Made by a program: the position numbers and the translations under genes. Source: Limnohabitans sp. (GTDB taxonomy: Bacteria > Pseudomonadota > Gammaproteobacteria > Burkholderiales > Burkholderiaceae_C). From it: a stretch of DNA of 36,063 nt. The notes beneath the pieces were generated by a model that was not told the origin of the DNA, did no database searches, and saw only the letters and a list, made by a program, of their open reading frames with translations. Numbering within the stretch: the first letter of the stretch is position 1; each line of letters starts with the position of its first letter. Below are positions 2,366 to 32,273 of the stretch, piece by piece. The stretch is taken from positions 1-36,063 of the forward strand of contig VEQC01000005.1 of the NCBI GenBank assembly GCA_018883455.1, written 5' to 3'.

Positions 2366-2383
2366 GGTCAGGCACTGGTCAGG
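2366..2383. promoter_or_regulatory. Tandem direct repeat GGTCAGG-N4-GGTCAGG (11-bp period) in divergent RR/RND promoter region
   Basis: GGTCAGG at 2366-2372 and 2377-2383, directly abutting the RR start codon; the spacing fits OmpR-family response-regulator direct-repeat sites. Confidence 0.4.
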
Positions 2384-2434
2384 GTAGAAGTGAGACAGTG
2401 CCAAGCATAAGCCATCGCACGCCCAGATTCCGCT

Positions 2435-13970: not shown

Positions 13971-13986
13971 AAAATTGATCAATTTT
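13971..13986. promoter_or_regulatory. Perfect 16-bp palindrome, candidate operator upstream of YhgE/Pip gene
   Basis: AAAATTGATCAATTTT, its own reverse complement, 45 bp upstream of the start at 13926, overlapping the stop codon of the upstream EamA gene. Confidence 0.45.
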
Positions 13987-14836
13987 TGTGATCAGCTTGC
14001 AAGCCCCAGGCCGCGCCCATCGAAGCAACCATGATGCAAGCCATGGCCACGAACTGCAACACGCTCAGTGACTCGGCCAAGATCACCCAGCCGGCGAGCG
14101 CGCCAATGACGGGCTCGAGGCTCAGGAGAATGCTAAAGGTGTGGCGCGGCAAGTGATGGAGCGCGTACATCTCCAAGGCGTAGGGCACGGCACTCGAGAG
14201 CAAAGCCACCACCAGCCCTGCCGCCCACCATTGCGGCTCCAGCCATGTCGTGCCGGCCTGCCACGTGCCCAGGGGCACGACCAACATGGCCGCCGCCATC
14301 ATGCCCATGGGAGTGGCATAGCGGCCATGGCGTTGGGCCACTATTTGCCCGACGACGATGTAGGCCGCCCAATACACGGCCGCCGCCCCCGCAAAAGCCA
14401 CACCGGCCGGGTCCAGCGGTGCGTCTGTCTCCAAACCGGTTTGGGGCAACAGTAGGCCCATGCCCGTCGCCGCCAACGCCACCCACACCCCATCGCGCGC
14501 GTGCCGCGAACTCCACAGCGCCACGGCCAAGGGCCCAGTGAACTCAATCGCGATGGCCAGTCCAATTGGGATTCGACTCACCGATTCATAGAACAAAAAA
14601 TTCATCAGCCCCAAGATCAGCCCATAGGCGAGCAAGAGGGGCAGATCCGTCCTGCGCCAACGATGCCGCCAAGGCCGCAAGACCGCGACCAACATCACCG
14701 CGGCCAAGCCGATGCGCAAAGCCGAGACGCCGCCCACCCCCACCTCGTCAAACAAGGTTTTGGCGAACGACGAACCGATGCAAAGAGAGACCAAGGAGCC
14801 CAAAAGGGCCAGCAGGGGCCAGAGATGAACATTCAC
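13979..14836 (-). CDS. EamA/DMT-family transporter (RhtA-like)
   Basis: VNVHLWPLLALLGSLVSLCIGSSFAKTLFDEVGVGGVSALRIGLAAVML...SSAVPYALEMYALHHLPRHTFSILLSLEPVIGALAGWVILAE. GTG start inferred at 14836. Confidence 0.88.
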   Translation of the reverse strand: MNVHLWPLLALLGSLVSLCIGSSFAKTLFDEVGVGGVSALRIGLAAVMLVAVLRPWRHRWRRTDLPLLLAYGLILGLMNFLFYESVSRIPIGLAIAIEFTGPLAVALWSSRHARDGVWVALAATGMGLLLPQTGLETDAPLDPAGVAFAGAAAVYWAAYIVVGQIVAQRHGRYATPMGMMAAAMLVVPLGTWQAGTTWLEPQWWAAGLVVALLSSAVPYALEMYALHHLPRHTFSILLSLEPVIGALAGWVILAESLSVLQFVAMACIMVASMGAAWGLQADHKN

Positions 14837-14964
14837 ACGGGGATTGTGCCGTTTGCCGTTGGCTGCGGTGCCACAAGTTGCGCTTTCTGTGTCGCCCACC
14901 AAACCCGAGTGTTGCAGTGGGTTTTTCTTGACCCCACTCTCGCCAGGTTCGATGATCACACGAG

Positions 14965-15001
14965 CATTTCAGGCTGGAAACATTGTTTCACTATAGAAAC
15001 A
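14965..15001. promoter_or_regulatory. Site A: four-half-site operator candidate for IclR-type regulator
   Basis: CATTTC-N6-GAAACA-N1-TGTTTC-N6-GAAACA; contains perfect inverted repeats GAAACA-T-TGTTTC and TGTTTC-ACTATA-GAAACA. Same geometry as 30122-30158. Confidence 0.65.
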
Positions 15002-15107: not shown

Positions 15108-16073
15108 ATGCGCATTTTGGGTATCGACGAAATCACCTTTGCGGCGACGGATTTGTCCCGCTGCCAGCAATTCTTTGCCGACTGGGGCATGACGCTGGTG
15201 GAAGAAGCGCCCACGCGGCGTGTCTTTGAAACCCTCAATGGCTGCCGCGTGATCGTGGCCGACCCCAGCCACCCGGGCTTGCCCGCAGGCGTGGAGGCCG
15301 ATCCCACGGTGCGTGAGTTGGTGTGGGCCGTTGGCGAAGCGAGCGAATTGGAGGCCATCGCCCAAGCCATGCAGGGGCAACCTGGTTTTGTGCGAACGTC
15401 TGATCGTGTGGGCTGCACAGACCCCAATGGTCTGGCCATTCGGGTGCAGGTCACCCGCAAAAAACCCCTCACCCTGCCCTGCGCGCAAATGAACACGTGG
15501 AACGAGCGTCCGCGCTTGAACCAGCCGAGCCCGGCGTATGAACGGGCTCAACCGGTTGAGGTCGGGCATGTCGTGTTTTTTGTGACTGACTTGCAGGCCG
15601 TCACCGCGTTTTATGAAAGCGTGCTGGGCTTTGTGCTCTCTGACCGCTACCCAGGGCGTGGCCACTTCCTGCGCTGCGCCCCACGCGGGGGGCACCACGA
15701 CCTCTTCTTGTTGCAGACCCCGGAGGCGCGCAGGGGTCTCAACCATGTGGCCTTCACCGTGCGCGACGTGCACGAGGTGTTTGGAGGAGGCCTGCACATG
15801 TCACGCTGCGGTTGGGAGACCGAGCTGGGCCCCGGCCGTCACCCCGTTTCCTCGGCCATCTTCTGGTACTTCAACAGCCCCGCGGGTGCCCTCTGGGAGT
15901 ACTACACCGACGAAGACGAATTGACCGCCGAGTGGCAGCCCCGCGACTTCACGCCCGGGCCCACGGTGTTTGCCGAATGGGCGATCAAGGGCGGTATCGA
16001 TGGCCACACACGGCGGCAACACCTTGCAGCGGCCCCGAGTGGCCAATTCATGACCGACAAACCCAAGCCTTAA
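15108..16073 (+). CDS. VOC-superfamily protein, extradiol-dioxygenase-like
   Basis: Two VOC-like halves; C-terminal half keeps candidate metal ligands VGHVVFFVTD, LNHVAFTV and LWEYY (H/H/E). Start set at ATG 15108. Confidence 0.85.
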   Translation: MRILGIDEITFAATDLSRCQQFFADWGMTLVEEAPTRRVFETLNGCRVIVADPSHPGLPAGVEADPTVRELVWAVGEASELEAIAQAMQGQPGFVRTSDRVGCTDPNGLAIRVQVTRKKPLTLPCAQMNTWNERPRLNQPSPAYERAQPVEVGHVVFFVTDLQAVTAFYESVLGFVLSDRYPGRGHFLRCAPRGGHHDLFLLQTPEARRGLNHVAFTVRDVHEVFGGGLHMSRCGWETELGPGRHPVSSAIFWYFNSPAGALWEYYTDEDELTAEWQPRDFTPGPTVFAEWAIKGGIDGHTRRQHLAAAPSGQFMTDKPKP

Positions 16074-16110
16074 GGCCCCCTCGCCCCTGCGCTGATTGGA
16101 GGACAAGCCC

Positions 16111-16335
16111 ATGCCATCTCGCCCGCTCTACAACGAAACCCATCAACACCGCGACGGTGCCCCCACCGCCTATGAGAGCCTCTTAGGTGATGCCTTGGAG
16201 CGTGCGTTCGCCATGGGCATCCATGACCTCGAGGGGCTGGTGGCCTACCTCAACGCCTCCGGCCCCACGGGCCCCAATGGGCAGGCCTGGACGCCCGCGC
16301 TCTATCAACAAGAAATGGCGCGCTTGGGCGCCTGA
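16111..16335 (+). CDS. Small 74-aa protein resembling the 'recombinase-like helix-turn-helix' family, co-located with Rieske oxygenase
   Basis: MPSRPLYNETHQHRDGAPTAYESLLGDALERAFAMGIHDLEGLVAYLNASGPTGPNGQAWTPALYQQEMARLGA; preceded by GGAGGA ribosome-binding site. Confidence 0.7.
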   Translation: MPSRPLYNETHQHRDGAPTAYESLLGDALERAFAMGIHDLEGLVAYLNASGPTGPNGQAWTPALYQQEMARLGA

Positions 16336-16359
16336 CCCGCCTTGCCCTTGGAGTTCCGC

Positions 16360-17403
16360 ATGCACACCGCTGTTTTGACCCCACCAGTCGACCCCATCGA
16401 GCAGGTGCTCTCGGTCGGCTTGAAAGACCTTTGGTATCCCATTTGCCCCTCGGGCTTTGTGAAGGACAACCCCGTCTCGCTGCGCCGACTGGGCTACAAA
16501 ATCGTGCTTTGGCGTGATGCGAGTGGCCAAGTCCACGCCTTGGAAGACCACTGCCCGCACCGAGGCGCGCCGCTCTCCCTGGGCGTGATTCTGGGCGACC
16601 GCATGGCCTGCGCCTACCACGGCGTGGAGGTGCGCTGCGATGGCACGGTCATGCGCGTGCCGGGCAGCCCCGGCTGCAAACTCGAGGGCGCACGACCCAC
16701 GCGTCGCTTTTTGACCGAGGAGCGTCACGGGGCTATTTTTCTCTACAACGCCACCGACCCGCACCTCGACAGCGCGCCGCCCCTGGAACTGCCCGAACCG
16801 CTTGCCTCGCCCGAGTGGTCGTCTTTCCTCTGCTACGTCGAATGGGCCTGCGACTACCGCTACGTGATGGACAACGTGATGGACCCCATGCACGGCGTCT
16901 ACTTGCACAAGCAGTCGCACACCATGAGTGAGGGCGACGCGCACGCGGAATTTCAAATTCGCGACTTGCCCGAAATCGAGGGGTTTGTGTTCGAGAAAAA
17001 AGGCCAGCGCGATGTGAACTTCGACTGGACCGAATGGCGCGAAGCCGGCCACATTCACACCATGCGCCTAGAGATCCCCTACCCCAAGACGGGTGGCCCA
17101 GGGGGCAACTTCACGATTGTGGGGTCGTATGTGCCCGCCGAAAAAAATGTGACCGGGGTGTTCTTTTGGCGCTGCCGCAAAGTCAGCGGTTGGCAGCGCG
17201 ACACCTGGCGTTTCCTCTACAAAAACCGTCTGGAGCAACGGCACTGGAACGTGCTCGAGCAAGACCGCGTGGCCATTGAAGCCATGGAGCCCAACGCCAA
17301 CACCCGCGAGTTTCTCTACCAGCACGATTTGGGCATCGTGCGCTTGCGTCGTCGCTTAAAAGCCCTGGCGCAAGCCCAGATCGACCGCAGCACCACGGCC
17401 TGA
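16360..17403 (+). CDS. Rieske (2Fe-2S) aromatic ring-hydroxylating oxygenase, alpha subunit-type
   Basis: Rieske ligands CPHRGAPLS and CAYHGVEV; mononuclear iron motif DNVMDPMHGVYLHKQSH (D/E..H-x4-H type). Confidence 0.93.
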   Translation: MHTAVLTPPVDPIEQVLSVGLKDLWYPICPSGFVKDNPVSLRRLGYKIVLWRDASGQVHALEDHCPHRGAPLSLGVILGDRMACAYHGVEVRCDGTVMRVPGSPGCKLEGARPTRRFLTEERHGAIFLYNATDPHLDSAPPLELPEPLASPEWSSFLCYVEWACDYRYVMDNVMDPMHGVYLHKQSHTMSEGDAHAEFQIRDLPEIEGFVFEKKGQRDVNFDWTEWREAGHIHTMRLEIPYPKTGGPGGNFTIVGSYVPAEKNVTGVFFWRCRKVSGWQRDTWRFLYKNRLEQRHWNVLEQDRVAIEAMEPNANTREFLYQHDLGIVRLRRRLKALAQAQIDRSTTA

Positions 17404-17422: not shown

Positions 17423-18562
17423 TCAAATGGGGGGCAAGGCCACGCCCCAGGCGTCGTAGCCATAGACCCAATCGGCATTGCCCTGGGTTTTGAGCCACTG
17501 ATTGCCGCGCGAGGCGATCTGAATTTTGGCGGTGCGCTCCTGTCTGGCTTGCGCGTAGACCTGCAAAGCTTGCAACGCGCCTGCGCGCGTACTCACCCCT
17601 GCGAGGCACCGGCCCAGTACCACCCCGTCCTCAATCGCCATGCCCGCGCCTTGCGCCATGAAGGGCAACATGGGGTGGCAGGCATCGCCCAGCAAAGTCA
17701 CCGCCTGCATCGACCACTGCGGCAGAGGATCGCGTTCGTACAAGGCGCTCTTGAGCGTGGTGTCACAGGCCTCGAGCAAGGCGCGCGCATCGGGGTGAAA
17801 GTCTTGGTAGAACGCGCGCAGTTCGGCCACATCGCCCGGGCTCGTCCAGGACTCCTCGGTCCAGCTCTCCTGACCGGTGGTGGCAAACACAAAGGTCTCA
17901 CGCCCTTGGCTGAGCGGAAAAGTAACGATCTGGCTCTGCGGATTGGGGCCCCACCATTTGGTAAAGGCCTCGATTTCGGGAACGTGGCGCACCCGCTGCG
18001 TGGGCACCACCGAGCGGAAAGAGACGACCCCGGTAAAGCGCGGGTACTCCTCGCCAAACAAGGCCGCACGCACGCGCGAGTGAATGCCGTCGGCGCCCAC
18101 CACCACATCGAAGTGCGCCTGCGCACCGCCCACGAACTGCAAGTGCACCCCTTGCGCGTCTTGGGTGAGGCGCTCCAAGCGGTGGTCAAAGCGCATTTGG
18201 CTCAAGGGAAACTGCTCGGCCAACGCGGTGATCACATCGGCCCGGTGAATGGTCACTTGGGGTGCGCCATAACGGCGCTCGGCCTCATCGCCCATGGGCA
18301 GGCGCGAGGTTTCGAGCCCGGTGTCCCAATCGCGGCTGATGCGAAACGTGGGCTTGGCCCCCATGCGCCGAACGGCCGGCCCCGCCCCGAGGCCATCGAT
18401 GGCGCGCACCACATTGGGAGTGAGGTTGATATCGGCGCCCACGCGCGCGAAATCTTTGGCCTGCTCGAAGACCGTGACCATATGGCCGCGTTGGTGCAAA
18501 GCGATGGCGGCAGACAAGCCCCCCACACCCCCGCCCACAATGCCGATGTTGAGTCCTGTCAT
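17423..18562 (-). CDS. FAD-dependent aromatic monooxygenase (NicC / salicylate hydroxylase-like)
   Basis: GxGxxG: IGIVGGGVGGLSAAIALHQRGH; VVGADGIHSRVR; LLGDACHPMLPFMAQGAGMAIED; C-terminal WVYGYD similar to 6-hydroxynicotinate 3-monooxygenase. Start set at ATG 18562. Confidence 0.9.
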   Translation of the reverse strand: MTGLNIGIVGGGVGGLSAAIALHQRGHMVTVFEQAKDFARVGADINLTPNVVRAIDGLGAGPAVRRMGAKPTFRISRDWDTGLETSRLPMGDEAERRYGAPQVTIHRADVITALAEQFPLSQMRFDHRLERLTQDAQGVHLQFVGGAQAHFDVVVGADGIHSRVRAALFGEEYPRFTGVVSFRSVVPTQRVRHVPEIEAFTKWWGPNPQSQIVTFPLSQGRETFVFATTGQESWTEESWTSPGDVAELRAFYQDFHPDARALLEACDTTLKSALYERDPLPQWSMQAVTLLGDACHPMLPFMAQGAGMAIEDGVVLGRCLAGVSTRAGALQALQVYAQARQERTAKIQIASRGNQWLKTQGNADWVYGYDAWGVALPPI

Positions 18563-18581
18563 GGCGTGCTTCCCCCTGCGA

Positions 18582-19358
18582 TCAAACACTGTTGAAGGAG
18601 CCGCCATCGAGCAGAAGGTTCTGCCCGTTGATGTACCCCGCGTGCACACTGCACAAAAAAGCACAGGTGTGCCCAAATTCAGAAGGCTGACCCAAGCGGC
18701 GCGCAGGGTGTTTGGCCAAACGGCGCTCGACCACTTGCGCCACGCTCAGGCCCTCGCGCTCGGCTTGGCGCGCAAAGTTGCTCGCCAGCCGGGCCGTGTC
18801 AAAAGTACCCGGCAGCAAATTGTTGATGGTCACCCCGCTCGAAGCCACGCTGCGCGCAAGCCCCGCCACAAAACCGGTGAGCCCACTGCGCGCTCCGGTG
18901 GAGAGCCCTAGGCCCTCGACCGGCGATTTCACGGCACTTGAGGTGATGTTGATGATGCGCCCAAAGCCACGCGCCATCATGCCATCGACCGTGGCCTTGA
19001 TGAGTTCGATGGGGGCGAGCATATTGGCGTCAATGGCCCGCAGCCACGCCTGACGATCCCATTGCCGAAAATCCCCCGGGGGGGGGCCGCCGGCATTGGT
19101 CACCACGATGTCGTAATCGCGCGTGACCGCAAAAATGCGCGCGCGTCCCTCTTCGGTCGTGACGTCGGCACAAATCGCTCGCGCGTGGCCGGGGCCGCTC
19201 GTGTTGAGGCGATCGACGGCCGCTTGTAGCGGCCCCTCGGTGCGCGCGACCATCGTCACGTGCACGCCTTCGGCCACCAAGGCCTGCGCGCAGGCCAGCC
19301 CCAAGCCCGCGCTGGCCCCGCAGACCAGCGCTTGTTTGCCCGAGATGCCAAGATCCAT
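18582..19358 (-). CDS. SDR-family oxidoreductase
   Basis: GASAGLGLACAQALV Rossmann motif, VTNAGGPPPG (NAG motif), C-terminal YINGQNLLLDGG. Classical YxxxK is degenerate (STGARSGLTGF). Confidence 0.9.
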   Translation of the reverse strand: MDLGISGKQALVCGASAGLGLACAQALVAEGVHVTMVARTEGPLQAAVDRLNTSGPGHARAICADVTTEEGRARIFAVTRDYDIVVTNAGGPPPGDFRQWDRQAWLRAIDANMLAPIELIKATVDGMMARGFGRIINITSSAVKSPVEGLGLSTGARSGLTGFVAGLARSVASSGVTINNLLPGTFDTARLASNFARQAEREGLSVAQVVERRLAKHPARRLGQPSEFGHTCAFLCSVHAGYINGQNLLLDGGSFNSV

Positions 19359-19383
19359 ACAGGGTGCTCCCGTTGCAGAGGGG

Positions 19384-20409
19384 TTAATCCGCCGTGATGC
19401 GGCGCGCGCGAATCACGCGCGCCCAATCGGCCGTTTCCTTGCGCATGTGCGCGGCGAATTCGCCCGGGCGCATGGGGGTGAGTTGCAAACCTTGGGCCTG
19501 GAGTTTCTCCAGCACTGCGGGTTGCGACAGAATCTCGTGCGCGTCTAGCGCCAATTGCTCGGCCAGCGCGGCGGGCGTGCCCGCCGGGGCGAGCAAGCCG
19601 TACCAAGAGGTGACGATCACCCCGGCCACGCCCTGCTCGGCCAAGGTGGGAATATCCGCCGCCACGGGACTGCGCGTGGTGTCGGTCACGCCCAAGGCCA
19701 CCAGCTTGCCGCTGCGGATAAAGGGCAGCGTAGCGGGCAAGTTGCTAAACATCATGGGCACCACGCCCGCGAGCATGTCGTTGAGCGCGGGGCCTGTGCC
19801 TTTGTAGGGCACGTGCAGGATCTCGGTCTGGGTTTGCGATTTGAACAACTCACCCGCCAGGTGTAAGCCACTGCCCACACCGGGTGACGCATAGGAGAGA
19901 CTATCGGGCTGGCGTTTGGCGCGTGCGAGCAACTCACTCAAGCTCGTGATCTTGGATTGCGGGCTGACCACCAGCACATTGGGCGCTTTGGCCAACATGG
20001 TCACAGGGGTGAAATCACGCTCGACGTTGAACGGGAAATTGGGCATCAAGGTGGGGTTGATGGTGAGGTTGCCCGCAGGCACCACCAGCAAAGTGTGGCC
20101 ATCGGGTTTACCACGGCGCACTTTGTCCATGCCCAGATTGCCCGCCGCACCTGGCAAGTTCTCCACCACGGCGGCTTGGTCATAGCGTTGCGCCAGACCA
20201 TCGGCCAGCAATCGTGAGAGCGTGTCTACAGGCCCGCCGGGCGGAAACGGCGAGATGATGGCAAAGCGCTCCTGGCGCAATTGCTTGACCACGGCCGGGT
20301 CGGGTTGGGCTTGTGCAAGCCCCACCGTGGCCCAGGCGAGCAACACCCCGCCAAGCCAAAGCCTTCTTCCCCAATGCCCTTGACCGACCCGCTTCTTCGC
20401 GTCACGCAT
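19384..20409 (-). CDS. Bug/TctC-family tripartite tricarboxylate transporter substrate-binding protein
   Basis: Signal peptide then FAIISPFPPGGPVDTLSRLLADGLAQRY..VVENLPGAAGNLGMDKVRRGKPDGHTLL typical of the Bug family; start at 20409. Confidence 0.93.
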   Translation of the reverse strand: MRDAKKRVGQGHWGRRLWLGGVLLAWATVGLAQAQPDPAVVKQLRQERFAIISPFPPGGPVDTLSRLLADGLAQRYDQAAVVENLPGAAGNLGMDKVRRGKPDGHTLLVVPAGNLTINPTLMPNFPFNVERDFTPVTMLAKAPNVLVVSPQSKITSLSELLARAKRQPDSLSYASPGVGSGLHLAGELFKSQTQTEILHVPYKGTGPALNDMLAGVVPMMFSNLPATLPFIRSGKLVALGVTDTTRSPVAADIPTLAEQGVAGVIVTSWYGLLAPAGTPAALAEQLALDAHEILSQPAVLEKLQAQGLQLTPMRPGEFAAHMRKETADWARVIRARRITAD

Positions 20410-20429
20410 GACAGACTCCTTGTTGTACT

Positions 20430-21902
20430 TTAGCCCGCGGCCCAAGGCAGCGGGTTGTCGTTGAGGCCCCAGTAAAAACTTTTTTGCGCGGTGTAGGCCA
20501 GAATCCCCTCGCGCCCCTTTTCTTGGCCGTAGCCACTCATCTTCACGCCCGAGAAGGGCGTGCTGATGGAAAAGAGTTTGTAGGTGTTGACCCAAACCGT
20601 GCCCACTTGCAAGGCCGAGCCGATGCGCCAAGCGGTTTTGTAATCGCGCGTCCAAATGCCCGAGGCCAAGCCATAGAGGTTGTCATTGCATTGCGCGATC
20701 AGGTCGGCCTCATCGCGCCAGGGCAAGAGGGCGAGCACCGGCCCAAAGATTTCTTCCTGACACAGGCGGGTGCGGTTGTCGAGCCCTTCAAAAACCGTGG
20801 GTAGGTAGTAGCTGCCGTGGTCGTAATACCCCCCCGTGGGGCGAGTTCCGCCAGCGAGCAAGCGTCCGCCCTCTTGCAAACCGAGCTCGACGTAACGCTC
20901 CACGCTCGTGCGGTGGGCCTGATTGACCAGCGGGCCCATTTGGGTGTCTTCGCGCGCGGGGTCGCCTACGCGCAGGGCTTGCACGCCTTGGAGCAGTCGC
21001 GCTTTGAATTCGTCGTACACCTGCGCGTGCACGAAGGCGCGCGAGCCCGCCACGCAAGACTCCCCAGAAGAGCTGAAGATGCCGTAGAGGACGCCCGCCA
21101 CCGCGTGGTCGAGGTCGGCGTCGGCACACACGATGGTGGGCGACTTCCCACCCAGTTCGAGCGACGTGGGCATGAGCTTTTCAGCGGCAAGGCGTTGAAT
21201 GCCCATTCCGACCGTGGTGCCACCGGTAAATGCGATGCGTTGAATCAGGGGGTGTCTGACCAAGGCGTCGCCCACCACACTGCCCTTGCCCGGCAATACG
21301 CTCACGATGCCATCGGGCACCCCGGCCTGCTGGCAGATCTTGGCCAATTCAATGGCCATGCGGGGGGTGACTTCAGCGGGCTTGATCACCACCGCGCAGC
21401 CTGCGGCCAGTGCGGGCGCGAGCTTTTGCGCCTCGCTGGCGATGGGGCTGTTCCACGGCGTGATGGCCCCCACGACACCCAGGGGCTCGTGCACACTCAG
21501 GGTGAGGAAGTCCCCCCGCGAGGGGGTGAGGGTTTCTTCCCAAGTCTCGGCCGCGGCAGCAAAGAACTGAAAAGTGCCCGCCGCGCTGGCGACCAAGGCG
21601 CGGCATTCCCGAATGGGCTTGCCGTTATCGAGGCGTTGCAATTGCGCGAGGCCTTCGGCGTTGGCCCGAATGCCCGCCGCGACTCGGTGCAAGAGCGCCG
21701 CGCGCTCATGGTGCTTGAGACGCGCCCAATTGGGTTTCCAGCGCGCGGCCTCGGCCGCTTGCACGGCCTCGTCCACGTCGGCGCTCGTCCCCGCGTGCAG
21801 AGTGGCCACGGTGGAGCCGTCATGCGGGTATTCGGTGGCGTAGCGCGGCCCTGAGGCATCGCGCCATCGTCCGGCGAAAAAGGTTTGCAGGTGTTCGCTC
21901 AT
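20430..21902 (-). CDS. NAD(P)-dependent aldehyde dehydrogenase
   Basis: GAITPWNSPI, FTGGTTVG, LELGGKSP, FSSSGESCVAGSR (catalytic Cys), QEEIFGPVLALLPW. Confidence 0.95.
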   Translation of the reverse strand: MSEHLQTFFAGRWRDASGPRYATEYPHDGSTVATLHAGTSADVDEAVQAAEAARWKPNWARLKHHERAALLHRVAAGIRANAEGLAQLQRLDNGKPIRECRALVASAAGTFQFFAAAAETWEETLTPSRGDFLTLSVHEPLGVVGAITPWNSPIASEAQKLAPALAAGCAVVIKPAEVTPRMAIELAKICQQAGVPDGIVSVLPGKGSVVGDALVRHPLIQRIAFTGGTTVGMGIQRLAAEKLMPTSLELGGKSPTIVCADADLDHAVAGVLYGIFSSSGESCVAGSRAFVHAQVYDEFKARLLQGVQALRVGDPAREDTQMGPLVNQAHRTSVERYVELGLQEGGRLLAGGTRPTGGYYDHGSYYLPTVFEGLDNRTRLCQEEIFGPVLALLPWRDEADLIAQCNDNLYGLASGIWTRDYKTAWRIGSALQVGTVWVNTYKLFSISTPFSGVKMSGYGQEKGREGILAYTAQKSFYWGLNDNPLPWAAG

Positions 21903-21909
21903 GCAGGTC

Positions 21910-22710
21910 TCACACGGCCACGGGGGCTACACGGTTGTGCAAAAAGCGCAAAGCAGAGAGCACGGTCAAGGCCGAGGTCTTGGGGTTTTCGGCCAGCGGT
22001 TTACCGCGCATGGTCACCCGCATCTCGCCAAAGGCCCCCCGCACCTCATACTCATGAATGTTCTCGCTCACGCTTGGGTCGGCCACCAAACGCACCTGGG
22101 TGCGGTCTAAGCCAATGCCCGCGAGCGAGAGCGTGGCCGCCACGTTGGCGTTCTTGGGATAGAGGCGTGCAGCTTCGCGCGCGCTGGCCTCGAGAATCAC
22201 CGCCGGCGCTGTCAACTGCGCCAAATCAACCACGTCTTCGGCCGGCGTGCCGCGCCAACCCAGCGGGGGCTTGCGTCCGGTGTAAATCAAGGCGTCGATG
22301 CCTTGGTGGCGGGCCGCCGAGATGGCGTCAATCCCGCCAATCGCCCCGGCGAGCAAATGCAACTGCGTACCACCCGCTTGGGCCGCGGCTTCGAGTTCCT
22401 CGGGCAAACCGGCTTGCGCCAACGCACCCACCGAGAGCACGGCGCATTCCACGCCCCGGCGCAAGGCCGGTAGCACATGCGCGACCAAGGCGCTATGGCT
22501 CGCGCACTCCAGCACCAACTGGGCCGAGGGCGGTACGGCGTCCACGGCTTGGGCGTGCGCCCCGAGCTGTGCCTGCACCCGCGCGACGGACGCGGGCGAG
22601 ACCACCACATGCGTGATGCGCAAGGCGCTCTGGCCTTGCAGACGCTGGAAGAGGGTCGAGCCAATGGCCCCAAACCCCACCAACACCACATCTTGTGTTT
22701 TGTTCGCCAT
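21910..22710 (-). CDS. Aspartate dehydrogenase-like (NadX/DUF108 family)
   Basis: VVLVGFGAIGSTLFQRL; LLAGAIGGIDAISAAR; KNANVAATLSLAGIGLDRTQVRLVADP characteristic of L-aspartate dehydrogenases. Confidence 0.85.
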   Translation of the reverse strand: MANKTQDVVLVGFGAIGSTLFQRLQGQSALRITHVVVSPASVARVQAQLGAHAQAVDAVPPSAQLVLECASHSALVAHVLPALRRGVECAVLSVGALAQAGLPEELEAAAQAGGTQLHLLAGAIGGIDAISAARHQGIDALIYTGRKPPLGWRGTPAEDVVDLAQLTAPAVILEASAREAARLYPKNANVAATLSLAGIGLDRTQVRLVADPSVSENIHEYEVRGAFGEMRVTMRGKPLAENPKTSALTVLSALRFLHNRVAPVAV

Positions 22711-22713
22711 CGC

Positions 22714-24378
22714 TTAATCTCCCGCACGTTTGGGGGGGCCTGCAAACTTCACGGCAAAGGGGCCCCAAGACGCCATGTCCACCTCCACCACGCTCGGGCC
22801 AGTGTGCGCCAAGGCCTCGGCCAAGACAGCGTGCGCCTGATCAGCTTGGCTCAAGCGCCAATGGGGCAAGGCCATGCTCGCGCACAAGCCCGCGAAATCG
22901 GGGGTATGCAAGTCGACATAGCAATGGCGGCTGCCGTAGAGATCGTCTTGAATGTTGCGAATCACGCCATAGCTTCGGTCGTTCATCACGATGAACGTCA
23001 CGTTGGCGTTTTCTTGCACCGCGCAGGCGAGCTCGCCCAAGTTGAGCATGAAGCCGCCGTCCCCACACAGGGCCACGGTTTTGCGGCCCAATTGGTGCGT
23101 GGCGTCGGCCACCGCCGTGCCCACGCCCATGGCGAGGCCTTGTCCAATGCCCCCGCCAAGCGCGTGTACGCCTGCACGCGGGTGATTGAGCACGGGCGCA
23201 CGGTTACCCCACATGGTGTTGGACAAGGTGATGTCGCGCACCCACCAAAGCGCTTGACCCGCCACCTCGGCCAGCGCGTCCTTGAGCGCCACATAGGGGC
23301 CTAGCGTGGCATCGACTGCTTGGGCCGCAGCGGCACGGGTTTGTTGCACATCGCGCGCGTATTGCGGGTCGATTTGCATGCGGCCCTCCAATCGATCGGC
23401 CAAGGCATCGAGCGTGAGCTGGGCGTCTCCACACACAAAGTAGGCGCTGTCGTAGGCGCGGTTTTGCGTGAGCGGATTGGCGTCGATGCGGTAACGCGTG
23501 GCGGGCAAGGCCAGCTTATAGGTCAAGGTCTCGTTGCTGCGCAAACGCGAGCCCACCACCAAGAGCGCGTCCACACTGGCATAAAAAGCCTCGGTGGGTT
23601 TTTGCAAGTTGTACGAGCCCAAAGAGGCAGGGTGGTCTTCGGGCAAAACGCCTCGCCCCTGCACGGAGCTCACGACCGCCCAGCCCATGGCCACCAAGCG
23701 GCGTACGGCAGCGCTTGCGCCCCGCGCGCCACCGCCAAGCCACAGCAGGGGCCGACGCGCGGTCATCAGGCGTTGCGCCAAGGCGTCCACGGCGGTGCTC
23801 TGCGGGGCGAGCGGTGCCACGGCCAAGGGCGCGCAATCGGGCGGCAGGGGCAAGGTCATCTTCTGCACATCGATGGGAATTTCAATGCTCACAGGGCCAC
23901 ATGGCGGCGTTTGGGCGATGCGCACCGCCTCGCGCAAAGTGGCCAGCGCGGTTTGCGGATCGCGAATGCGAAACGCCTCCTTGCCCACGGACTTGAGCAT
24001 GGCAAGTTGGGCGGGGTGCTCGTGAATGAAACCCAAATCGCGATCCAGAAACGGCGATTCAATCTGTCCGGTGAGGTGCAGCAAGGGGGTGCCCGCCGTG
24101 AGGGCTTCGACCATCGCGCCCGCGGCGTTGCCGCAGCCCGTGCCGGTGCTGGTCACGCATACCCCCAAGGTGGCGCTCACCCGGGCATAGGCATCGGCCA
24201 TGTTGCAAGCCCCCGCCTCGCCGCGTGCGGACACAAAACGAATCTGGCCACGCCGATGAAAGGCATCCAGGATGGGCATGTTGTGAATGGAGATCACGCC
24301 AAAGGCGGCCCTCACGCCGCACTGCTCCAAAAAGCGCGCGACTAACTCGCCAACGGTGATGGTGGGGGGGGTACTCAT
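22714..24378 (-). CDS. Thiamine-diphosphate-dependent enzyme (acetolactate synthase / 2-oxoacid decarboxylase superfamily)
   Basis: N-terminal FVSARGEAGACNMADAYARV, central domain, ThDP motif LCGDGGFMLNLGELACAVQENANVTFIVMNDRSYG. Confidence 0.92.
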   Translation of the reverse strand: MSTPPTITVGELVARFLEQCGVRAAFGVISIHNMPILDAFHRRGQIRFVSARGEAGACNMADAYARVSATLGVCVTSTGTGCGNAAGAMVEALTAGTPLLHLTGQIESPFLDRDLGFIHEHPAQLAMLKSVGKEAFRIRDPQTALATLREAVRIAQTPPCGPVSIEIPIDVQKMTLPLPPDCAPLAVAPLAPQSTAVDALAQRLMTARRPLLWLGGGARGASAAVRRLVAMGWAVVSSVQGRGVLPEDHPASLGSYNLQKPTEAFYASVDALLVVGSRLRSNETLTYKLALPATRYRIDANPLTQNRAYDSAYFVCGDAQLTLDALADRLEGRMQIDPQYARDVQQTRAAAAQAVDATLGPYVALKDALAEVAGQALWWVRDITLSNTMWGNRAPVLNHPRAGVHALGGGIGQGLAMGVGTAVADATHQLGRKTVALCGDGGFMLNLGELACAVQENANVTFIVMNDRSYGVIRNIQDDLYGSRHCYVDLHTPDFAGLCASMALPHWRLSQADQAHAVLAEALAHTGPSVVEVDMASWGPFAVKFAGPPKRAGD

Positions 24379-25199
24379 GAATTCATCCTGATTTTGGGAT
24401 GCTCGCTGCCGCTCGTCGGGGCGTGGCGGATGCGATCGGACAATTGCCCCGCGGCGGCACGGACTTGCTCGACCAAGCCGGGGAGAACTGCGTCGTCGAT
24501 GCGTTGGGCCGGCACGGCAATGCTGATGGCGGCGATCACCGCCCCGCGCGCGTTGATCACGGGCGCGGCCACGGTGGAGATGCCCGTCTCGAAACCGCCC
24601 ATGCTCACGCCGTAACCGCGCGCGCGGTCTTCTTCAATCAAGGCCTTGAGCTGCGCGCGGCTCGTGGGGGTGCGCGGAGTGAAGGCTTGCAGGGGTTCGT
24701 CGGGGTATAGGGCTTTGAGCGCCTGCGCGTCGAGATCGGCCATCAAGAGCCGCCCCAGCACGGTGGCGTGTGCGGGCAATCGCGCGCCCACTTGAATGGA
24801 TTGGAACAGCGCACTGCGGCCCGCGGCCTTGGCGACAAACACGACTTGGGTGGCGTCGCGCACCACGATATGGGCCGAGTAACCGCATTGGTCGCGCAGC
24901 GCTTCAATGACCGGTCGGCCATGCTCGGTCAAATCCATCGCCGCGAGCAATTCAAAACCCAAGCGCAACACCGCCAAGCCCAAGCGATAGCTCACGCCAT
25001 CGTCGGCGCGCTCGACAAAGCCGCCTTGCTCCAAGGTGTAGAGCATGCGAAAGACCGACGCGCGGGGCAAGCCCAAGCGGCGCGAGAGTTCGGCGCCGCT
25101 CAGCTCGCGCTCCTCACGACTGAACTGGGTGAGCAGTTGCAAGCCCCGGGCGAGCGCTGGCACGGTGTAGCGGTCGTCGCTTTTGTCGTCCGTGCTCAT
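24375..25199 (-). CDS. IclR-family transcriptional regulator
   Basis: YTVPALARGLQLLTQFSREERELSGAELSRRLGLPRASVFRMLYTLEQGGFV winged helix; C-terminal effector domain GGFETGISTVAAPVINARGAVIAAISIAVPAQ. Start set at ATG 25199. Confidence 0.95.
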   Translation of the reverse strand: MSTDDKSDDRYTVPALARGLQLLTQFSREERELSGAELSRRLGLPRASVFRMLYTLEQGGFVERADDGVSYRLGLAVLRLGFELLAAMDLTEHGRPVIEALRDQCGYSAHIVVRDATQVVFVAKAAGRSALFQSIQVGARLPAHATVLGRLLMADLDAQALKALYPDEPLQAFTPRTPTSRAQLKALIEEDRARGYGVSMGGFETGISTVAAPVINARGAVIAAISIAVPAQRIDDAVLPGLVEQVRAAAGQLSDRIRHAPTSGSEHPKIRMNS

Positions 25200-26047
25200 G
25201 CAACCCGCTCCGATCGTGCAGGCTGATCCCACCCCAAAAGGGTGTGCACCGCCGCGGCCGCCTCAATGGCGCAGGCATGCCCCACGGGCCCGAGGCTTTG
25301 CCAAGTCACCCCCGCGTCCTGCGCCACCGCTTGGCAAGCTGAGGCGGGGGTAATGCCATCGGCCTCACCGCTGGCCACCCAGCGGGGGCACTGCACCTGC
25401 GCGAGATCCCGCGCGAGCACGGCGTTGGCGAGCATGTGGGCGGCCTGGGTGTAACCCGCCACCTGAATTTGCGCCATCGTCGCACGCACGGCCTCGATTT
25501 GCTCGGGGCGCGCGTTTGGCGAGAGCATGGCGTGCGCGCGTTCGGCCGCCATGCCTTCGGGCCCCAAACGCGCGAGCGTCTCGAGGCGGGTGCGTAATTT
25601 TTCTTCGCGCACGGGCGCCGGCGCGTCGCCATAGCCACGCGCGGGCGCGAGCAAAACCAAGCCCTGCACCCGCTCGGGGGCCAAGGCCGCGGCGCTGGCG
25701 GCCATCAAGCAGCCCAAAGAGTGCCCCACCAAAACCACCGCAGACGTGGCGTGCAAGGCATCGAGCCAGGCCCAGAGGTGGCGCGCGTAGTCCAGCGCCT
25801 GGGGCGACGCATTGGCCACGGGGTCACTCTGCCCATAGCCCGGCGCGTCCCACGCCAGCACCCGCAAGTCCTCTCGATCTTGCACCCAGGTGAGTTGGGC
25901 GAGCCAACTGGCCGAACCCGAGCCGATGCCGTGCAAAAGCACGTGCGTGACCGCACTCGCTTGGCCCGATTCGCGCCACTGCACCGCCCCGAAGGGCGTG
26001 CGCACGCGTTGGGCGGGGAAAGCGTCGGTTGAGGCCGCAGCGGTCAT
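25196..26047 (-). CDS. Alpha/beta-fold hydrolase
   Basis: VLLHGIGSGSASW; VLVGHSLGCLMAASAAAL nucleophile elbow; VLAWDAPGYGQSD. Start set at ATG 26047; 4-bp overlap with the IclR gene. Confidence 0.92.
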   Translation of the reverse strand: MTAAASTDAFPAQRVRTPFGAVQWRESGQASAVTHVLLHGIGSGSASWLAQLTWVQDREDLRVLAWDAPGYGQSDPVANASPQALDYARHLWAWLDALHATSAVVLVGHSLGCLMAASAAALAPERVQGLVLLAPARGYGDAPAPVREEKLRTRLETLARLGPEGMAAERAHAMLSPNARPEQIEAVRATMAQIQVAGYTQAAHMLANAVLARDLAQVQCPRWVASGEADGITPASACQAVAQDAGVTWQSLGPVGHACAIEAAAAVHTLLGWDQPARSERVA

Positions 26048-26076
26048 GGTCGGGTCGGACACGAAGGGCTGGGGCT

Positions 26077-26679
26077 TTAGCGCTTGAGCTTGGCCAGAGG
26101 GGAGTCCGGCGGGTACACCGGGGTGATGGGCTTGGGCGAGCCCAGCATCACGCACATGAGGGCGTCTTCATCGCCAATGTTGTGCTCCTCGCGGTAGACG
26201 CCCGGAGGCACCGAAATCAAATCGCGCTCGCCCAGTACGGCCTCCCAGCGCTGGCCGTCTTTTTCGCAAATGACTTTCATCGCGCCGCGCATGACAAAGA
26301 AAATTTCCTCCACGTCGTAGTGGATGTGCGAGGGGCCGATGTGCCCCGCAGGAATCACCATGGTGGAGAAGGTGAAATGCGCCGCAGGCACGGTGTTGAC
26401 ATCTTTGGCCACGCCGGTTCCGCCGGTGCCCACATAGCGCATTTGCGCACGCCGGTAGCGTGGGTCGTAGTCGGCCTGAAATTTGAGGGCATCCCAGTCG
26501 TAGCGGCGCGTGGACTTGCGCGCCACGCGGCTCTCCATCCATTGCTCAAAACTTTGTCCGGGCTGCTGCATCATGGCCGCCTGAATGTCGGCTTCAGGCG
26601 GGATCTGGGCATCTTGCAAGCCGCGCGCGTTGAAGACGGGTTGGTTGGCGGCGGGGGCTGTTGGGAAAGGGGCATTCAT
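26077..26679 (-). CDS. Cupin-domain protein
   Basis: SHIHYDVEEIFFVMRGAMKV ... LISVPPGVYREEHNIG: both cupin motifs with metal ligands retained. Start set at ATG 26679. Confidence 0.9.
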   Translation of the reverse strand: MNAPFPTAPAANQPVFNARGLQDAQIPPEADIQAAMMQQPGQSFEQWMESRVARKSTRRYDWDALKFQADYDPRYRRAQMRYVGTGGTGVAKDVNTVPAAHFTFSTMVIPAGHIGPSHIHYDVEEIFFVMRGAMKVICEKDGQRWEAVLGERDLISVPPGVYREEHNIGDEDALMCVMLGSPKPITPVYPPDSPLAKLKR

Positions 26680-26690
26680 GCAGGAACTCC

Positions 26691-27440
26691 TCAATTGAAC
26701 ACAAAGCCGCCATTGACCGGCAGCAACTGGCCTGTGATGAAACCGCTCGCACGCGTGAGCAAAAAGAGCGCGGCGGCATTCACATCCTCGGGAACTTGGG
26801 GGCGACGAATGGCGCGCCCCTGCAAATAGTGCGCGTGCCGCTCTTGGGGCACGTATTCGGTGGCCTCGACCAGGGTCAGGCCTGGCGCGATGGCGTTGAC
26901 GGTGATGCCGTCCTCCCCCAGCTCGCGCGCGAGGGAACGTGTCATGGCAATCACCGCCCCTTTGCTCGCCACATAGGCGAGCAAGCGCGGTGGGCCCCAC
27001 AAGGCGGTGTCGGAGGCCAAATTGACCACCCGCCCCGAACCACTCGCCGCCAAATGAGGGCGCGCCTCGCGGGTCACGAGCCAGGTGCCGCGCACATTGA
27101 CGTTCATCACCTGATCAAACACCTGCGGCGAGAGCTCATCCAAGGTCTTGCCGCCGGAGTTGGTGATGGCGGCGTTGTTGATCAAGCCATCGAGCCCTCC
27201 GAGCTGAGACACCGCCGCTGCGACCCCTTCGCGAATGCTCGCCTCATCGGACAAGTCAAGCGGCACATAAGCCGCCGCCTCTCCCAGCGCTGCGGCCAGC
27301 GCGCGGCCGCGCTCATGCAAGACATCGCTGATCACCACTTTCGCCCCCGCGGCCACCAAAGCGCGCGCGAAGCTCTCGCCCAGACCGCGCGCTGCGCCGG
27401 TGACCAGCACCCGGCGGCCTTGGAGTTGGATTTCGGTCAT
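26691..27440 (-). CDS. SDR-family oxidoreductase
   Basis: VLVTGAARGLGESFARALV; INNAAITNS; YVASKGAVIAMTRSLARELG; TGQLLPVNGGFVFN. Confidence 0.94.
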   Translation of the reverse strand: MTEIQLQGRRVLVTGAARGLGESFARALVAAGAKVVISDVLHERGRALAAALGEAAAYVPLDLSDEASIREGVAAAVSQLGGLDGLINNAAITNSGGKTLDELSPQVFDQVMNVNVRGTWLVTREARPHLAASGSGRVVNLASDTALWGPPRLLAYVASKGAVIAMTRSLARELGEDGITVNAIAPGLTLVEATEYVPQERHAHYLQGRAIRRPQVPEDVNAAALFLLTRASGFITGQLLPVNGGFVFN

Positions 27441-27453
27441 GCGCTTGGGCCCT

Positions 27454-28233
27454 TCATGCACCCATGCGCTCAACGCTGGGCAAATAATGCAACACCCGGC
27501 GCTCGGCCAGGACCACGGCGTAATAGGCCACGATGCCAATCACCGTGAGCGCGCCAATGACGACGAACACCCCCGCGGTATTGCCCTGGCCTTCAAAGAA
27601 GACGAGCAAATAACCCAGGCCCATATTGCCGCCCACCAACTCCCCCACCACCACACCAATGACGGCCAAGGTGCTGGCAATGCGCAAGCCCGAGAACAGC
27701 GGGGGCAAGGTGGTCGGAAACTCGACCATGCGAAAGACCTGAAAGCGCGTGGCGGAGAACGAGCGGGCCAAGTTGATCAGGTCCGCGTCCATCGCCCGCA
27801 TGGCGCTGAGCACATTGATCAGCACCGGAAAGAAGACGATGAGTACCGCAACCAAAATCTTGGGGTAAATGGTGTAGCCAAGCCACATCACAAAAAGCGG
27901 GGCGAACGCGACCTTCGGCGCGATCTGCAACGCCAGCAGATAAGGGGAGAGCACGGCCTCCACCCGGGGCGAGACGCCCAGGGCGTAACCGATCATGGCG
28001 CCCAGCCAAGAGCCCAACACAAAGCCAATGACCACTTCGAGCGCCGTCACCCCCGCATGCCAGAGCAAACGCTCCCCGCCCCATATCCGGCCCAACTCCT
28101 GCACCACCACGCTCGGCGGGGGCAAGACAAATTCCGGCACGCCCAAGAGCGCGGGCACGTACTCCCAGGTCAGGAGGAAGACCAAGAGCACCGCCACACT
28201 CCAGGCGGCCGTGACAAGACGTTCGTTTTGCAT
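27454..28233 (-). CDS. ABC transporter permease (SsuC/TauC-type)
   Basis: ~6 TM; VVGELVGGNMGLGYLLVFFEGQGN and ATRFQVFRMVEFPTTLPPLFSGLRIAST (EAA-like loop). Confidence 0.92.
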   Translation of the reverse strand: MQNERLVTAAWSVAVLLVFLLTWEYVPALLGVPEFVLPPPSVVVQELGRIWGGERLLWHAGVTALEVVIGFVLGSWLGAMIGYALGVSPRVEAVLSPYLLALQIAPKVAFAPLFVMWLGYTIYPKILVAVLIVFFPVLINVLSAMRAMDADLINLARSFSATRFQVFRMVEFPTTLPPLFSGLRIASTLAVIGVVVGELVGGNMGLGYLLVFFEGQGNTAGVFVVIGALTVIGIVAYYAVVLAERRVLHYLPSVERMGA

Positions 28234-28257
28234 GGTGGGGGGCGCTGACGTCGGGCT

Positions 28258-29256
28258 TTACTTCGTCACAAACTGATTGGTGTAGAGCTCTTTGACGGGC
28301 ACTTCTTTGGGAACGATGCCATTGGTGACATAGAACTTCTGCAATTCCACCAAGCGCGGCTCGTCCATCATGCCCGGCACCTTTTGGGCCGCATAGACAT
28401 ATTTGTTGTAGAGCTCAAAGGCTTTCTCAATACTGGCCTCCTTGCCCTTGTGCACTGGCACATGGTTGACGTAGGTGGCCACCGCAGCCTTGGGGTTGGT
28501 CATGATGTCTTTCATGCCCTTGAGGGTGGCGCGCACGAGTTTTTGCAGAAGCTGCGGGTTTTTGGCAATGGTTTCATCGGACGCCAAAATGGCTTGGGCC
28601 ATGCTCTTGAAATACAAATCGGCAGGCATGACGTCCACCTGCGAGCCCGCATCCATGGCGCTCACCGTCCAATCGGGCACCCCGGCCATGGCGCTGGCCT
28701 TCTTCGCGGCGAACTGCTGCCACACGCCCGCAGGGCCTGCGGCCTGAATGTTGACGTCGTTTTTCGTCAAGCCCACCTTGCTGAGCATGCCGAGCAAGGC
28801 GTAGTAAGTGGTGTCGGTATAGGCGAGCACGGTCACCGTGCGGCCCTTGAGTTCGCGCGGGCTCTCGATGCGCTCGTCCTTGTGGCTCACGAGTTGGGTG
28901 AGCGAGCCCGCACCCAAGACGGCGACGGCTTTGACAGGAATGCCTTGCGCGCGCGCAATGATGGGGGTGTCTCCAATCGCGCCCCCGATCACGGCATTGC
29001 CCGCGCCAATTTGCTTGGCCACATCCACGCCGCCACGCGCCGTCACGAAATTGACCTTGAGGCCTTCTTGCTCATAGTAGCCCTTGGCTTGCGCCAGCAT
29101 CCAGGGACCAAACGCCGGCAAGGTGCCCGGCGCTGGCAACAAATAGGTGACTTCCTGCAATTGGGCCTGCGAAGCCATGGGCAACGCGAATGCGCCGGCG
29201 GCGAGCAGGGACAGGCACAGGCGGCGGGCAGAGAAAGGGGGCTTGTTTGTTTTCAT
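28258..29256 (-). CDS. ABC transporter substrate-binding protein (NMT1/SsuA/TauA-type)
   Basis: Signal peptide LCLSLLAAGAFALPMASQAQ; ARGGVDVAKQIGAGNAVIGGAIGDTPIIARAQGIPVKAVAVLG. Confidence 0.92.
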   Translation of the reverse strand: MKTNKPPFSARRLCLSLLAAGAFALPMASQAQLQEVTYLLPAPGTLPAFGPWMLAQAKGYYEQEGLKVNFVTARGGVDVAKQIGAGNAVIGGAIGDTPIIARAQGIPVKAVAVLGAGSLTQLVSHKDERIESPRELKGRTVTVLAYTDTTYYALLGMLSKVGLTKNDVNIQAAGPAGVWQQFAAKKASAMAGVPDWTVSAMDAGSQVDVMPADLYFKSMAQAILASDETIAKNPQLLQKLVRATLKGMKDIMTNPKAAVATYVNHVPVHKGKEASIEKAFELYNKYVYAAQKVPGMMDEPRLVELQKFYVTNGIVPKEVPVKELYTNQFVTK

Positions 29257-29298
29257 CGCGGACTCCATGGGTTGGGGTGGGACAGGAAAAAAACGGAT

Positions 29299-30105
29299 TT
29301 AGTGCACATCGGACTGGGCGTCGAGTTTGAGCAGATCCATCAAGTGCGCCACGTACTCGCCCACACGGGGGTGTTTGCGCCGCTGCATGGGGTTCTCACG
29401 CTCGGGGATGTCGATGGGAATTTCCGCCACGATCGTGCCTGGGCGCTCGCTCATGACCAAGATGCGGTCGGAGAGGGCCACGCCTTCGGCGAGGTCATGG
29501 GTGATGAAGAGAACGGTCTTGCCGTGGGCCTTCACGGTTTGCGCCAAGTCCTGTTGCAAGATCATTTTGGTTTGGGCATCGAGCGCCGAAAACGGCTCGT
29601 CCAACAGCAGCACCAGGGGATCCACCGCCAGCGTGCGCGCCATGGCCGCGCGCTGGCGCATGCCGCCCGAGAGTTGATTGGGGTAGTGCTCGCCAAAGCC
29701 CGCCAAATGGCATTGCACCAAGAGTCGGCTCGAAATGGCTTTGCGCTCCGACGCGGGCACGCCGCGCAACTCCAAGCCCAATTCCACGTTTTGCGCAATC
29801 GTGCGCCAAGGCATGAGCAAATCTTTTTGCAGCATGAAGGCGACGTGACGGTTCGGGCCCTTGACCCACTCCCCGCCCACCATGACCCGGCCTTGTGACG
29901 GCGCCGAGAGCCCAGCCCCCATATTGAGCAAAGTGCTCTTGCCACAACCCGAGGGGCCAATGATGGAGACCACCTCACCTGGCGCGATGGCAAAGTTCAC
30001 ATCGCGCGCGGCGAGCACTTCACCGGACTTGCCCCGCGCCGCAAAGCGCTTCTCGACCTCGATGAACTCGATGGCAGGGACGGCCTGATCGGCTTTCGTG
30101 GTCAT
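29299..30105 (-). CDS. ABC transporter ATP-binding protein (SsuB/TauB-type)
   Basis: Walker A GPSGCGKST, signature LSGGMRQRAAMARTL, Walker B LVLLLDEPFSALD. Confidence 0.95.
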   Translation of the reverse strand: MTTKADQAVPAIEFIEVEKRFAARGKSGEVLAARDVNFAIAPGEVVSIIGPSGCGKSTLLNMGAGLSAPSQGRVMVGGEWVKGPNRHVAFMLQKDLLMPWRTIAQNVELGLELRGVPASERKAISSRLLVQCHLAGFGEHYPNQLSGGMRQRAAMARTLAVDPLVLLLDEPFSALDAQTKMILQQDLAQTVKAHGKTVLFITHDLAEGVALSDRILVMSERPGTIVAEIPIDIPERENPMQRRKHPRVGEYVAHLMDLLKLDAQSDVH

Positions 30106-30121
30106 TCAATGCACTCGTGGT

Positions 30122-30158
30122 TGTTTTAAATACGAAACAGTGATTCACTTAAGAATCA
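30122..30158. promoter_or_regulatory. Site B: four-half-site operator candidate for IclR-type regulator
   Basis: TGTTTT-N6-GAAACA-N1-TGATTC-N6-GAATCA; contains the perfect inverted repeat TGATTC-ACTTAA-GAATCA; same geometry as 14965-15001; 17 bp upstream of the ABC ATPase start. Confidence 0.65.
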
Positions 30159-30350
30159 ATGATAGTGTGCCCCCTCACGGAGAAAACCAATACCCTAGCA
30201 AATTAATCGGGATTCAATGGGTCACCAGAAACACCCGTAAGGCATTCCCCGAGCTCCGAAAAAAATTGATACCGATTTAATTGACAATCATTTAGGGGCT
30301 GTGCAACCCGCCAGCCCTGACGCTCTCTTTGTTTCAGTCGGATACGCCCT

Positions 30351-32273
30351 ATGCCTTTGTCAATCGTCCCTTGGAAGAAGCTCCGCCCGATTTTGCGCAC
30401 GACCCACGCTCTGCGCGTGGTCTGCACCGGCCTGTTGTTGACCGGCATGGCCAGCGTGGCGCAGGCGCCCTTGGATGTGCGCGTGGCCTTGGTGATTGGC
30501 AACGCGGCCTACCAAAAGGTTCCGCCCCTCTCCAATTCGGTCAATGACGCCCGGGCCATGTCGCTCGTGCTGCGCAAACTCGGCTTCAAGGTTTTTGACG
30601 TGATCGATGGTGACCGCACCAGCATGGCCCAAGCCATCAGCCGACTGCAAAACGATTTGAAAGGTCAGCAGGCGGTGGCCATGCTCTATTACGCGGGGCA
30701 TGGCTTGCAACTGGACTGGCGCAATTACATGGTGCCGATTGACGCCAACATCGACAAAGCCGAAGACGTGCCCAAACAGACCGTAGACATCGAGCAGGTC
30801 ATCCAGACGTTCAAGGAATCCAAAACCCGCATGAACATCATCGTGCTCGACGCCTGCCGCGACAACCCCTTCGCGGGCAGCGCCAGCGGCAAAGGCTTGG
30901 CCCAACTCGACGCACCACCGGGCACCTACCTCGCCTTTGCCACGGCGCCAGGCAACGTGGCCGAAGATGGCGACGAAGCCACGGGCAACGGCCTCTTCAC
31001 CCACTTTTTGCTCAAAGAGCTGCAACGCCCCGCCAAAATTGAGGATGTCTTCAAGCGGGTGCGCTTGCAGGTTCGCCAAAAAAGCCAAGGGCGTCAAATT
31101 CCCTGGGACTCCAGCAGCTTGGAGGACGACTTCGCCTTCAACGATGGACGCAAGTTCAAATTCACCGCGGAAGACTATCAGCGCGAGATCCAGCAAGCCA
31201 AAGCCCGTGAAGAGCGGCTTCGCCGCGAGGCCGAAGCGGCTGCCGAGCGCGAGCGCCAACTCGCCCAGCTGCGCGAGCAGGAACGCCTGCGCTTGGCTGA
31301 AGCCCAGCGCATTGCGGAGCAAAAGGCGCGCGAGCGCGCCGAGGCCCAAGCCCGAGAGCGCGAGCGCGAGTTGGCGCTAGCCGCCGAAGCGGAGCGCAAA
31401 AAGGCTCAAGCCGCCCAAGAGGCCCTTGCGCGTGCGCAAGCCGAAGAGGCACAGCGCCTCAAGGACTTGGCCTTGGCGCGCGCACAGGCCGAAGAGGAGG
31501 AACAACGCCAACGCCTCTCCGCCGAGGCGGCACGCGAGCAGCAGTTCGCGCAAGAAAAGGCCGAGTGGGATCGGATCAAGGACAGCAAGAACGCGCAGGA
31601 CTTCTATGCGTTTTTGCTCAAATACCCCAACGGTTTGATTTCCGTTCAAGCCTCCGCCGCCATCGAGCGCCTGCAAGTGGCCCAAATCAAACCCCAGGCC
31701 GACCGAAGCGGCTTGGTGCAAGCCATCAACCCCGAGCGCTTCCGCGTGGGGGACAGCTATCACTACGTGCGCCGCGACAACCTCACGGGCCGCGAGATGA
31801 GTCGCTTCACGCGCACCATCACCAAAATTGAAAATGGTCTGGTGTATATCTCTAACGACGGCAATGAAGAAATCAATACCATCGACGGCGCGAAGATTTT
31901 GGTGGTGAGCGCCGTCACGTCCTTTCGTTACGACCCGCCCAAGATGGAAATTCCCACCGACGGACTGGTGGTCGGCAAAAAATGGACCGGGGCCTATGTG
32001 GAGACCGACCTCAAAACCCAGCGCAAGTATTTGCGTGAAGATAAATTCAAAATCCTGCAGCAAGAAATCGTGGAGGTGATCGCGGGCAAATTCAACACCT
32101 TCAAGATTGAGGACGTTTCCTTCAACCAAACGGGCACCCGCGCCTCCCTGGTCTATTGGGTCGACCCTGACTGGGGCTTGCCCGTGCGCACCGACCGAGA
32201 GGTGATCAATGCACGGGCCAATATCCGCATCAGTGAAACCGTGCAGCTGATCTCACGCGCGCGGGGGCGCTAG
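30351..32273 (+). CDS. Secreted caspase-fold (peptidase C14) protein with coiled-coil and C-terminal domain
   Basis: Signal-like N-terminus; ALVIGNAAYQKVPPLSNSVNDARAMSLVLRKLGF; catalytic His MLYYAGHG, catalytic Cys IIVLDACRDNPF; ~130-aa E/R/A-rich coiled coil; beta-rich C-terminal domain. Confidence 0.92.
   Translation: MPLSIVPWKKLRPILRTTHALRVVCTGLLLTGMASVAQAPLDVRVALVIGNAAYQKVPPLSNSVNDARAMSLVLRKLGFKVFDVIDGDRTSMAQAISRLQNDLKGQQAVAMLYYAGHGLQLDWRNYMVPIDANIDKAEDVPKQTVDIEQVIQTFKESKTRMNIIVLDACRDNPFAGSASGKGLAQLDAPPGTYLAFATAPGNVAEDGDEATGNGLFTHFLLKELQRPAKIEDVFKRVRLQVRQKSQGRQIPWDSSSLEDDFAFNDGRKFKFTAEDYQREIQQAKAREERLRREAEAAAERERQLAQLREQERLRLAEAQRIAEQKARERAEAQARERERELALAAEAERKKAQAAQEALARAQAEEAQRLKDLALARAQAEEEEQRQRLSAEAAREQQFAQEKAEWDRIKDSKNAQDFYAFLLKYPNGLISVQASAAIERLQVAQIKPQADRSGLVQAINPERFRVGDSYHYVRRDNLTGREMSRFTRTITKIENGLVYISNDGNEEINTIDGAKILVVSAVTSFRYDPPKMEIPTDGLVVGKKWTGAYVETDLKTQRKYLREDKFKILQQEIVEVIAGKFNTFKIEDVSFNQTGTRASLVYWVDPDWGLPVRTDREVINARANIRISETVQLISRARGR

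Follow-up and report, generated by a model that had tools for sequence, protein, structure and literature searches.

Two copies of a 37-bp four-box element, sites A and B, lie about 15 kb apart in the window (the whole stretch of 36,063 nucleotides of Limnohabitans sp. DNA analyzed here), each upstream of the first gene of one of two convergent transcription units. Judged from sequence comparison, they are very probably the operators of the IclR-family regulator encoded within the larger unit (24375-25232), which would repress both units until an inducer arrives. The preliminary description of this DNA had proposed that the two sites define one regulon, and we find that prediction supported by the presence of the element at both ends of orthologous loci.

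A shared element at the heads of two convergent units

The features concerned are the following:

14928-14956, plus strand: candidate promoter TTGACC-N17-GATGAT before site A (9 of 12 matches; mean of 0.1 in shuffles)
14965-15001, no strand assigned: site A, the same element as site B with a degenerate box 1 (weight matrix 26.4; equivalents at the VOC unit of genomes G357, G485, G673 and G706)
15108-17403, plus strand: convergent unit encoding a VOC-type dioxygenase-like protein, an HTH_62 protein and a Rieske oxygenase
17423-30105, minus strand: 13-gene unit, with co-transcription predicted from spacing and conserved order
24375-25232, minus strand: IclR-family regulator, gene 7 of the operon and presumed binder of A and B (Pfam HTH_IclR and IclR_C)
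29299-30105, minus strand: ABC ATPase, gene 1 of the 13-gene operon
30122-30158, no strand assigned: site B, predicted IclR-type four-box operator, TGTTTT-N6-GAAACA-N1-TGATTC-N6-GAATCA (direct reading, weight matrix 41.8, orthologue conservation at the operon head)
30159-30164, minus strand: candidate -10 element TATCAT abutting site B, in a register that agrees with the orthologue NATAAT

The 13-gene unit encodes, in order, an ABC ATPase, an NMT1-type binding protein, a permease, an SDR, a cupin, an alpha/beta hydrolase, the IclR regulator, a TPP enzyme of the PRK07064 type, an aspartate dehydrogenase, an aldehyde dehydrogenase, a TctC-type protein, a second SDR and an FAD monooxygenase, and is separated from the convergent unit by a gap of nineteen bases. 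Genes of this kind suggest a pathway that degrades an aromatic compound. The HTH_62 gene (16111-16335, plus strand), in orthologous clusters often a neighbor of the gene for the Rieske oxygenase, encodes a 74-residue "recombinase-like helix-turn-helix" protein. Elsewhere in the window, a frame of 607 residues (1673-3496, minus strand) overlaps RND efflux genes on the opposite strand; its response-regulator match (receiver and Trans_reg_C) is confined to residues 380-602, so that its true start is probably internal.

Read directly, site B is TGTTTT-AAATAC-GAAACA-G-TGATTC-ACTTAA-GAATCA, exactly the half-sites of the preliminary description, and site A is CATTTC-AGGCTG-GAAACA-T-TGTTTC-ACTATA-GAAACA. 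Both comprise four 6-bp half-sites at spacings of 6, 1 and 6 bp, and the earlier claim that order and spacing are identical in the two sites thus stands for the spacings but not for box 1 of site A, a degenerate CATTTC that agrees with TGTTTC at four of six positions. With boxes 2-4 perfect, site A is therefore best described as three strong boxes plus one weak. Similarly, the inverted repeat reported as perfect in site B is so in its 6-bp arms TGATTC/GAATCA but not in the spacer ACTTAA, which is non-palindromic; arms 1 and 2 of the same site match at 5/6 positions. Between site B and the ABC ATPase ATG (30105) we count 16 intervening bases rather than the 17 bp first given, with the center of the element 35 bp upstream. 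For the VOC gene behind site A the most likely start is ATG 15108, not the upstream ATG 15012, because the matches of its homologues begin at the former, which would place the element 106 bp upstream of that start.

Each site has a further gene on its other side. The divergent gene that has its upstream region in common with the 13-gene operon encodes a 640-residue Caspase-domain (Peptidase_C14) protein (30351-32273, plus strand); this metacaspase-like gene was considered as a target of site B and set aside, not being seen beside orthologous ABC genes in our maps. The EamA gene adjoining site A (13979-14959), considered likewise as a target, is absent from the orthologous maps.

The element fits a described IclR-family type

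Suvorova and Gelfand 2021 (PMC8222616) define in their main text a group 2 IclR motif, TGRAACA-N1-2-TGTTYCA, and report there that 32 orthologous groups have three-box sites whose boxes alternate in direction, and that 94 have tandem palindromes at a distance of 18-22 nt. The consensus of the orthologous elements mapped here, TGTTTCattAaTGAAaCA.TGtTTCAtTaatGAAACA (inner part ...TGAAaCA.TGtTTCA...), fits the group 2 palindrome as given in that text, from which the inner 15-mer of site A, GGAAACATTGTTTCA, departs at one position and that of site B, CGAAACAGTGATTCA, at two. Outside the inner palindrome, box 4 is strong in both sites, whereas box 1 on the opposite side is strong in B and weak in A; the three-box arrangement of the same text, with a further alternating box outside the palindrome, is thus present, and the outer boxes are conserved in orthologues. 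Both sites can equally be read as two 18-bp palindromes in tandem (TGNTTY-N6-RAANCA), 19 bp center to center, within the 18-22 nt range reported in that main text. An IclR gene is, moreover, both linked to the element and co-occurring with it. The likeness to the sites described there thus extends to the inner palindrome, the alternating boxes, the tandem spacing and the position just upstream of the first gene, the difference from the three-box sites being that four regular boxes are found here. By the classes set out in that text, the element is an already described type of control site, of which this is a new but ordinary example; the regulon of this cluster is not named in the main text.

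Individual family members offer partial parallels. The KdgR operator, listed as RWWGAAACGNCGTTTCAKKA in the main text of PMC8222616, has a similar core palindrome of the GAAAC-NNN-GTTTC type, but is listed there as a single palindrome, and KdgR regulates pectin/uronate genes; the window's IclR protein scores 113 bits as KdgR against a cut-off of 275. PcaU and PobR of Acinetobacter, according to the same text related IclR regulators of aromatic catabolism, similarly combine a palindrome with an additional direct-repeat half-site, but their half-sites follow the GTTCG type, arranged in 10-bp units, and the window's IclR falls below the cut-off of the corresponding family TIGR02431 (PcaR/PcaU/PobR; 183.1 against 284.75 bits). 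Among experimental parallels the closest found is PheR of Sphingobium (PMC13273656), an IclR-family repressor with a 44-bp footprint from -21 to +23 that covers the transcription start of a catabolic operon; the PheR core is a different one, GCAACG, and so is the operon.

The two sites stand out from chance and recur in orthologous clusters

The 25-bp core pattern, at up to three mismatches, matches the window twice, at A and B, and has no match in 100 shuffles; at the same threshold no third convincing site was found in the whole assembly. As this pattern was derived from the two sites themselves, we built an independent weight matrix from 20 elements at orthologous loci of other genomes, the window excluded. 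Site B scores 41.8 and site A 26.4, with nothing else in the window above 5, while the maximum over 200 shuffled windows is 11.8. That the similarity of the two sites reflects chance or low-complexity AT-rich sequence is a reading to which AT-rich stretches at other loci lend something, since orthologous loci read backwards score up to 19; set against the scores of A and B, and against the conservation of element positions across genera, which for site B already refutes chance, we give it practically no weight.

Counts from the orthologous clusters, which we mapped in Burkholderiales genomes, are not independent since the loci are related. About 20 orthologous loci with upstream sequence have the four-box element at the head of their ABC-first operon, at a distance of approximately 0 to 470 bp from its center to the estimated ABC start downstream. 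Where the operon begins with another gene, TctC-type (loci L109, L112 and L129) or IclR (L045 and L047), the element precedes that first gene instead, and in Ralstonia wenshanensis p56D2 a match is found just ahead of the cluster's first gene. Genomes with a split pathway (the window's own, G357, G485, G673 and G706) carry the element at both units in all five cases examined. The preliminary description had proposed looking for orthologous loci that lack the element at either end; the ABC-first heads and the five split genomes answer that check in its favor, with fewer comparisons behind site A than behind site B. Matches are weak or missing at four clusters whose IclR protein is about 50% identical (L039, L043, L127 and L044), where the motif has drifted or lies outside the fetched DNA.

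Association with the IclR-family regulator

A strict four-box match (at most one mismatch) occurs in 13 of 400 family genomes and an orthologue of the window's IclR (E <= 1e-50) in 36; 12 of the 13 have both (hypergeometric P = 5e-13, which overstates independence since the genomes are related). The one strict match in a genome without an IclR orthologue at this threshold (L141, in G426) precedes a TctC-type gene by about 170 bp. Nearly all relatives keep the IclR HTH recognition segment PR-[AS]-[ST]-VFR-x-L-x-TLE, and a contig scan with IclR yielded only one distant relative (28%).

Another regulator might bind the element while the operon's IclR acts elsewhere, given that the tie between element and IclR is drawn from sequence and that some clusters hold two IclR genes. 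We regard this as very improbable in view of the co-occurrence just described, of a sequence type that is that of IclR sites in the main text of PMC8222616, and of the window's cluster, which offers no other regulator gene to which the element could be mapped. The two-gene clusters, with proteins 44-51% identical to the window's, are L048/L049 (G133), L039/L040 (G284) and L041/L042 (G158), and possibly represent a duplicated regulator with diverged sites. Strict four-box elements also stand before TctC-type binding-protein genes remote from the catabolic cluster (L133 in G133 and L134 in G580); these are probable distant regulon members, as expected of a wider regulon.

Promoter register and probable mode of action

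When aligned on the element and oriented to the gene, most ABC-first orthologues feature a promoter of the form TTGAC[ACG]-N17-NATAAT, whose -10 ends on the T that opens box 1. At this fixed register the promoter match averages 8.84 of 12, whereas shuffled upstream flanks give 5.39 +/- 0.25 and reach no more than 6.37 in 2000 trials; the register was not seen in TctC-first and some VOC units. With the orthologue promoter extending into box 1, the transcription start should fall within the element, as befits a repressor site. At site B in the window a simple promoter scan returned no consensus promoter and no good -35 was found, so that the argument for repression draws on the orthologues. The candidate promoter before site A ends 8 bp upstream of the element, which would again place that site at the transcription start.

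The fixed promoter register of the orthologues thus favors repression as the predicted mode of regulation. The poor -35 in the window leaves room for activation or for the help of another factor, and the same IclR might mainly activate, or do both, as do PcaU and PobR, which are known as activators and whose sites likewise consist of a palindrome plus an extra box; its three- or four-box site would then be needed to recruit RNA polymerase. Such a role appears unlikely to us, as a near-consensus promoter enters box 1 in most ABC-first orthologues and a position over the start site is not one expected of an activator.

In the favored reading, each site, with the group 2 palindrome TGAAWCA-N-TGTTTCA at its center, would be bound by IclR, probably as two dimers (a tetramer) on one face of the helix. 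Beginning as it does at the final base of the -10 in orthologues, the element should span approximately -7 to +30. IclR bound there would keep transcription from starting both at the transporter and catabolic operon, its own gene included, which implies autoregulation, and at the VOC/Rieske unit; release would come from an inducer, presumably the substrate or an intermediate. With four equally spaced boxes, IclR dimers would have two ways of pairing, over the inner palindrome or over the outer two, and we offer as speculation, with a small chance of being right, that the effector switches IclR between two registers on these 37 bp, one repressing and the other not, in parallel with the alternative dimerization suggested for three-box sites.

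Significance

A literature search by gene content of the cluster returned nothing specific and no description of it, and a paper on betaproteobacterial aromatic regulation left some IclR regulators adjoining transporters unstudied. With the present analysis a gene cluster found repeatedly in Burkholderiales gains a predicted regulator, predicted operators and a likely mode of action. The operator provides a handle for distant members of the regulon, such as the remote TctC-type transport genes of G133 and G580. Regulator and promoter together could serve in a search for the inducer, and hence for the substrate of the pathway.
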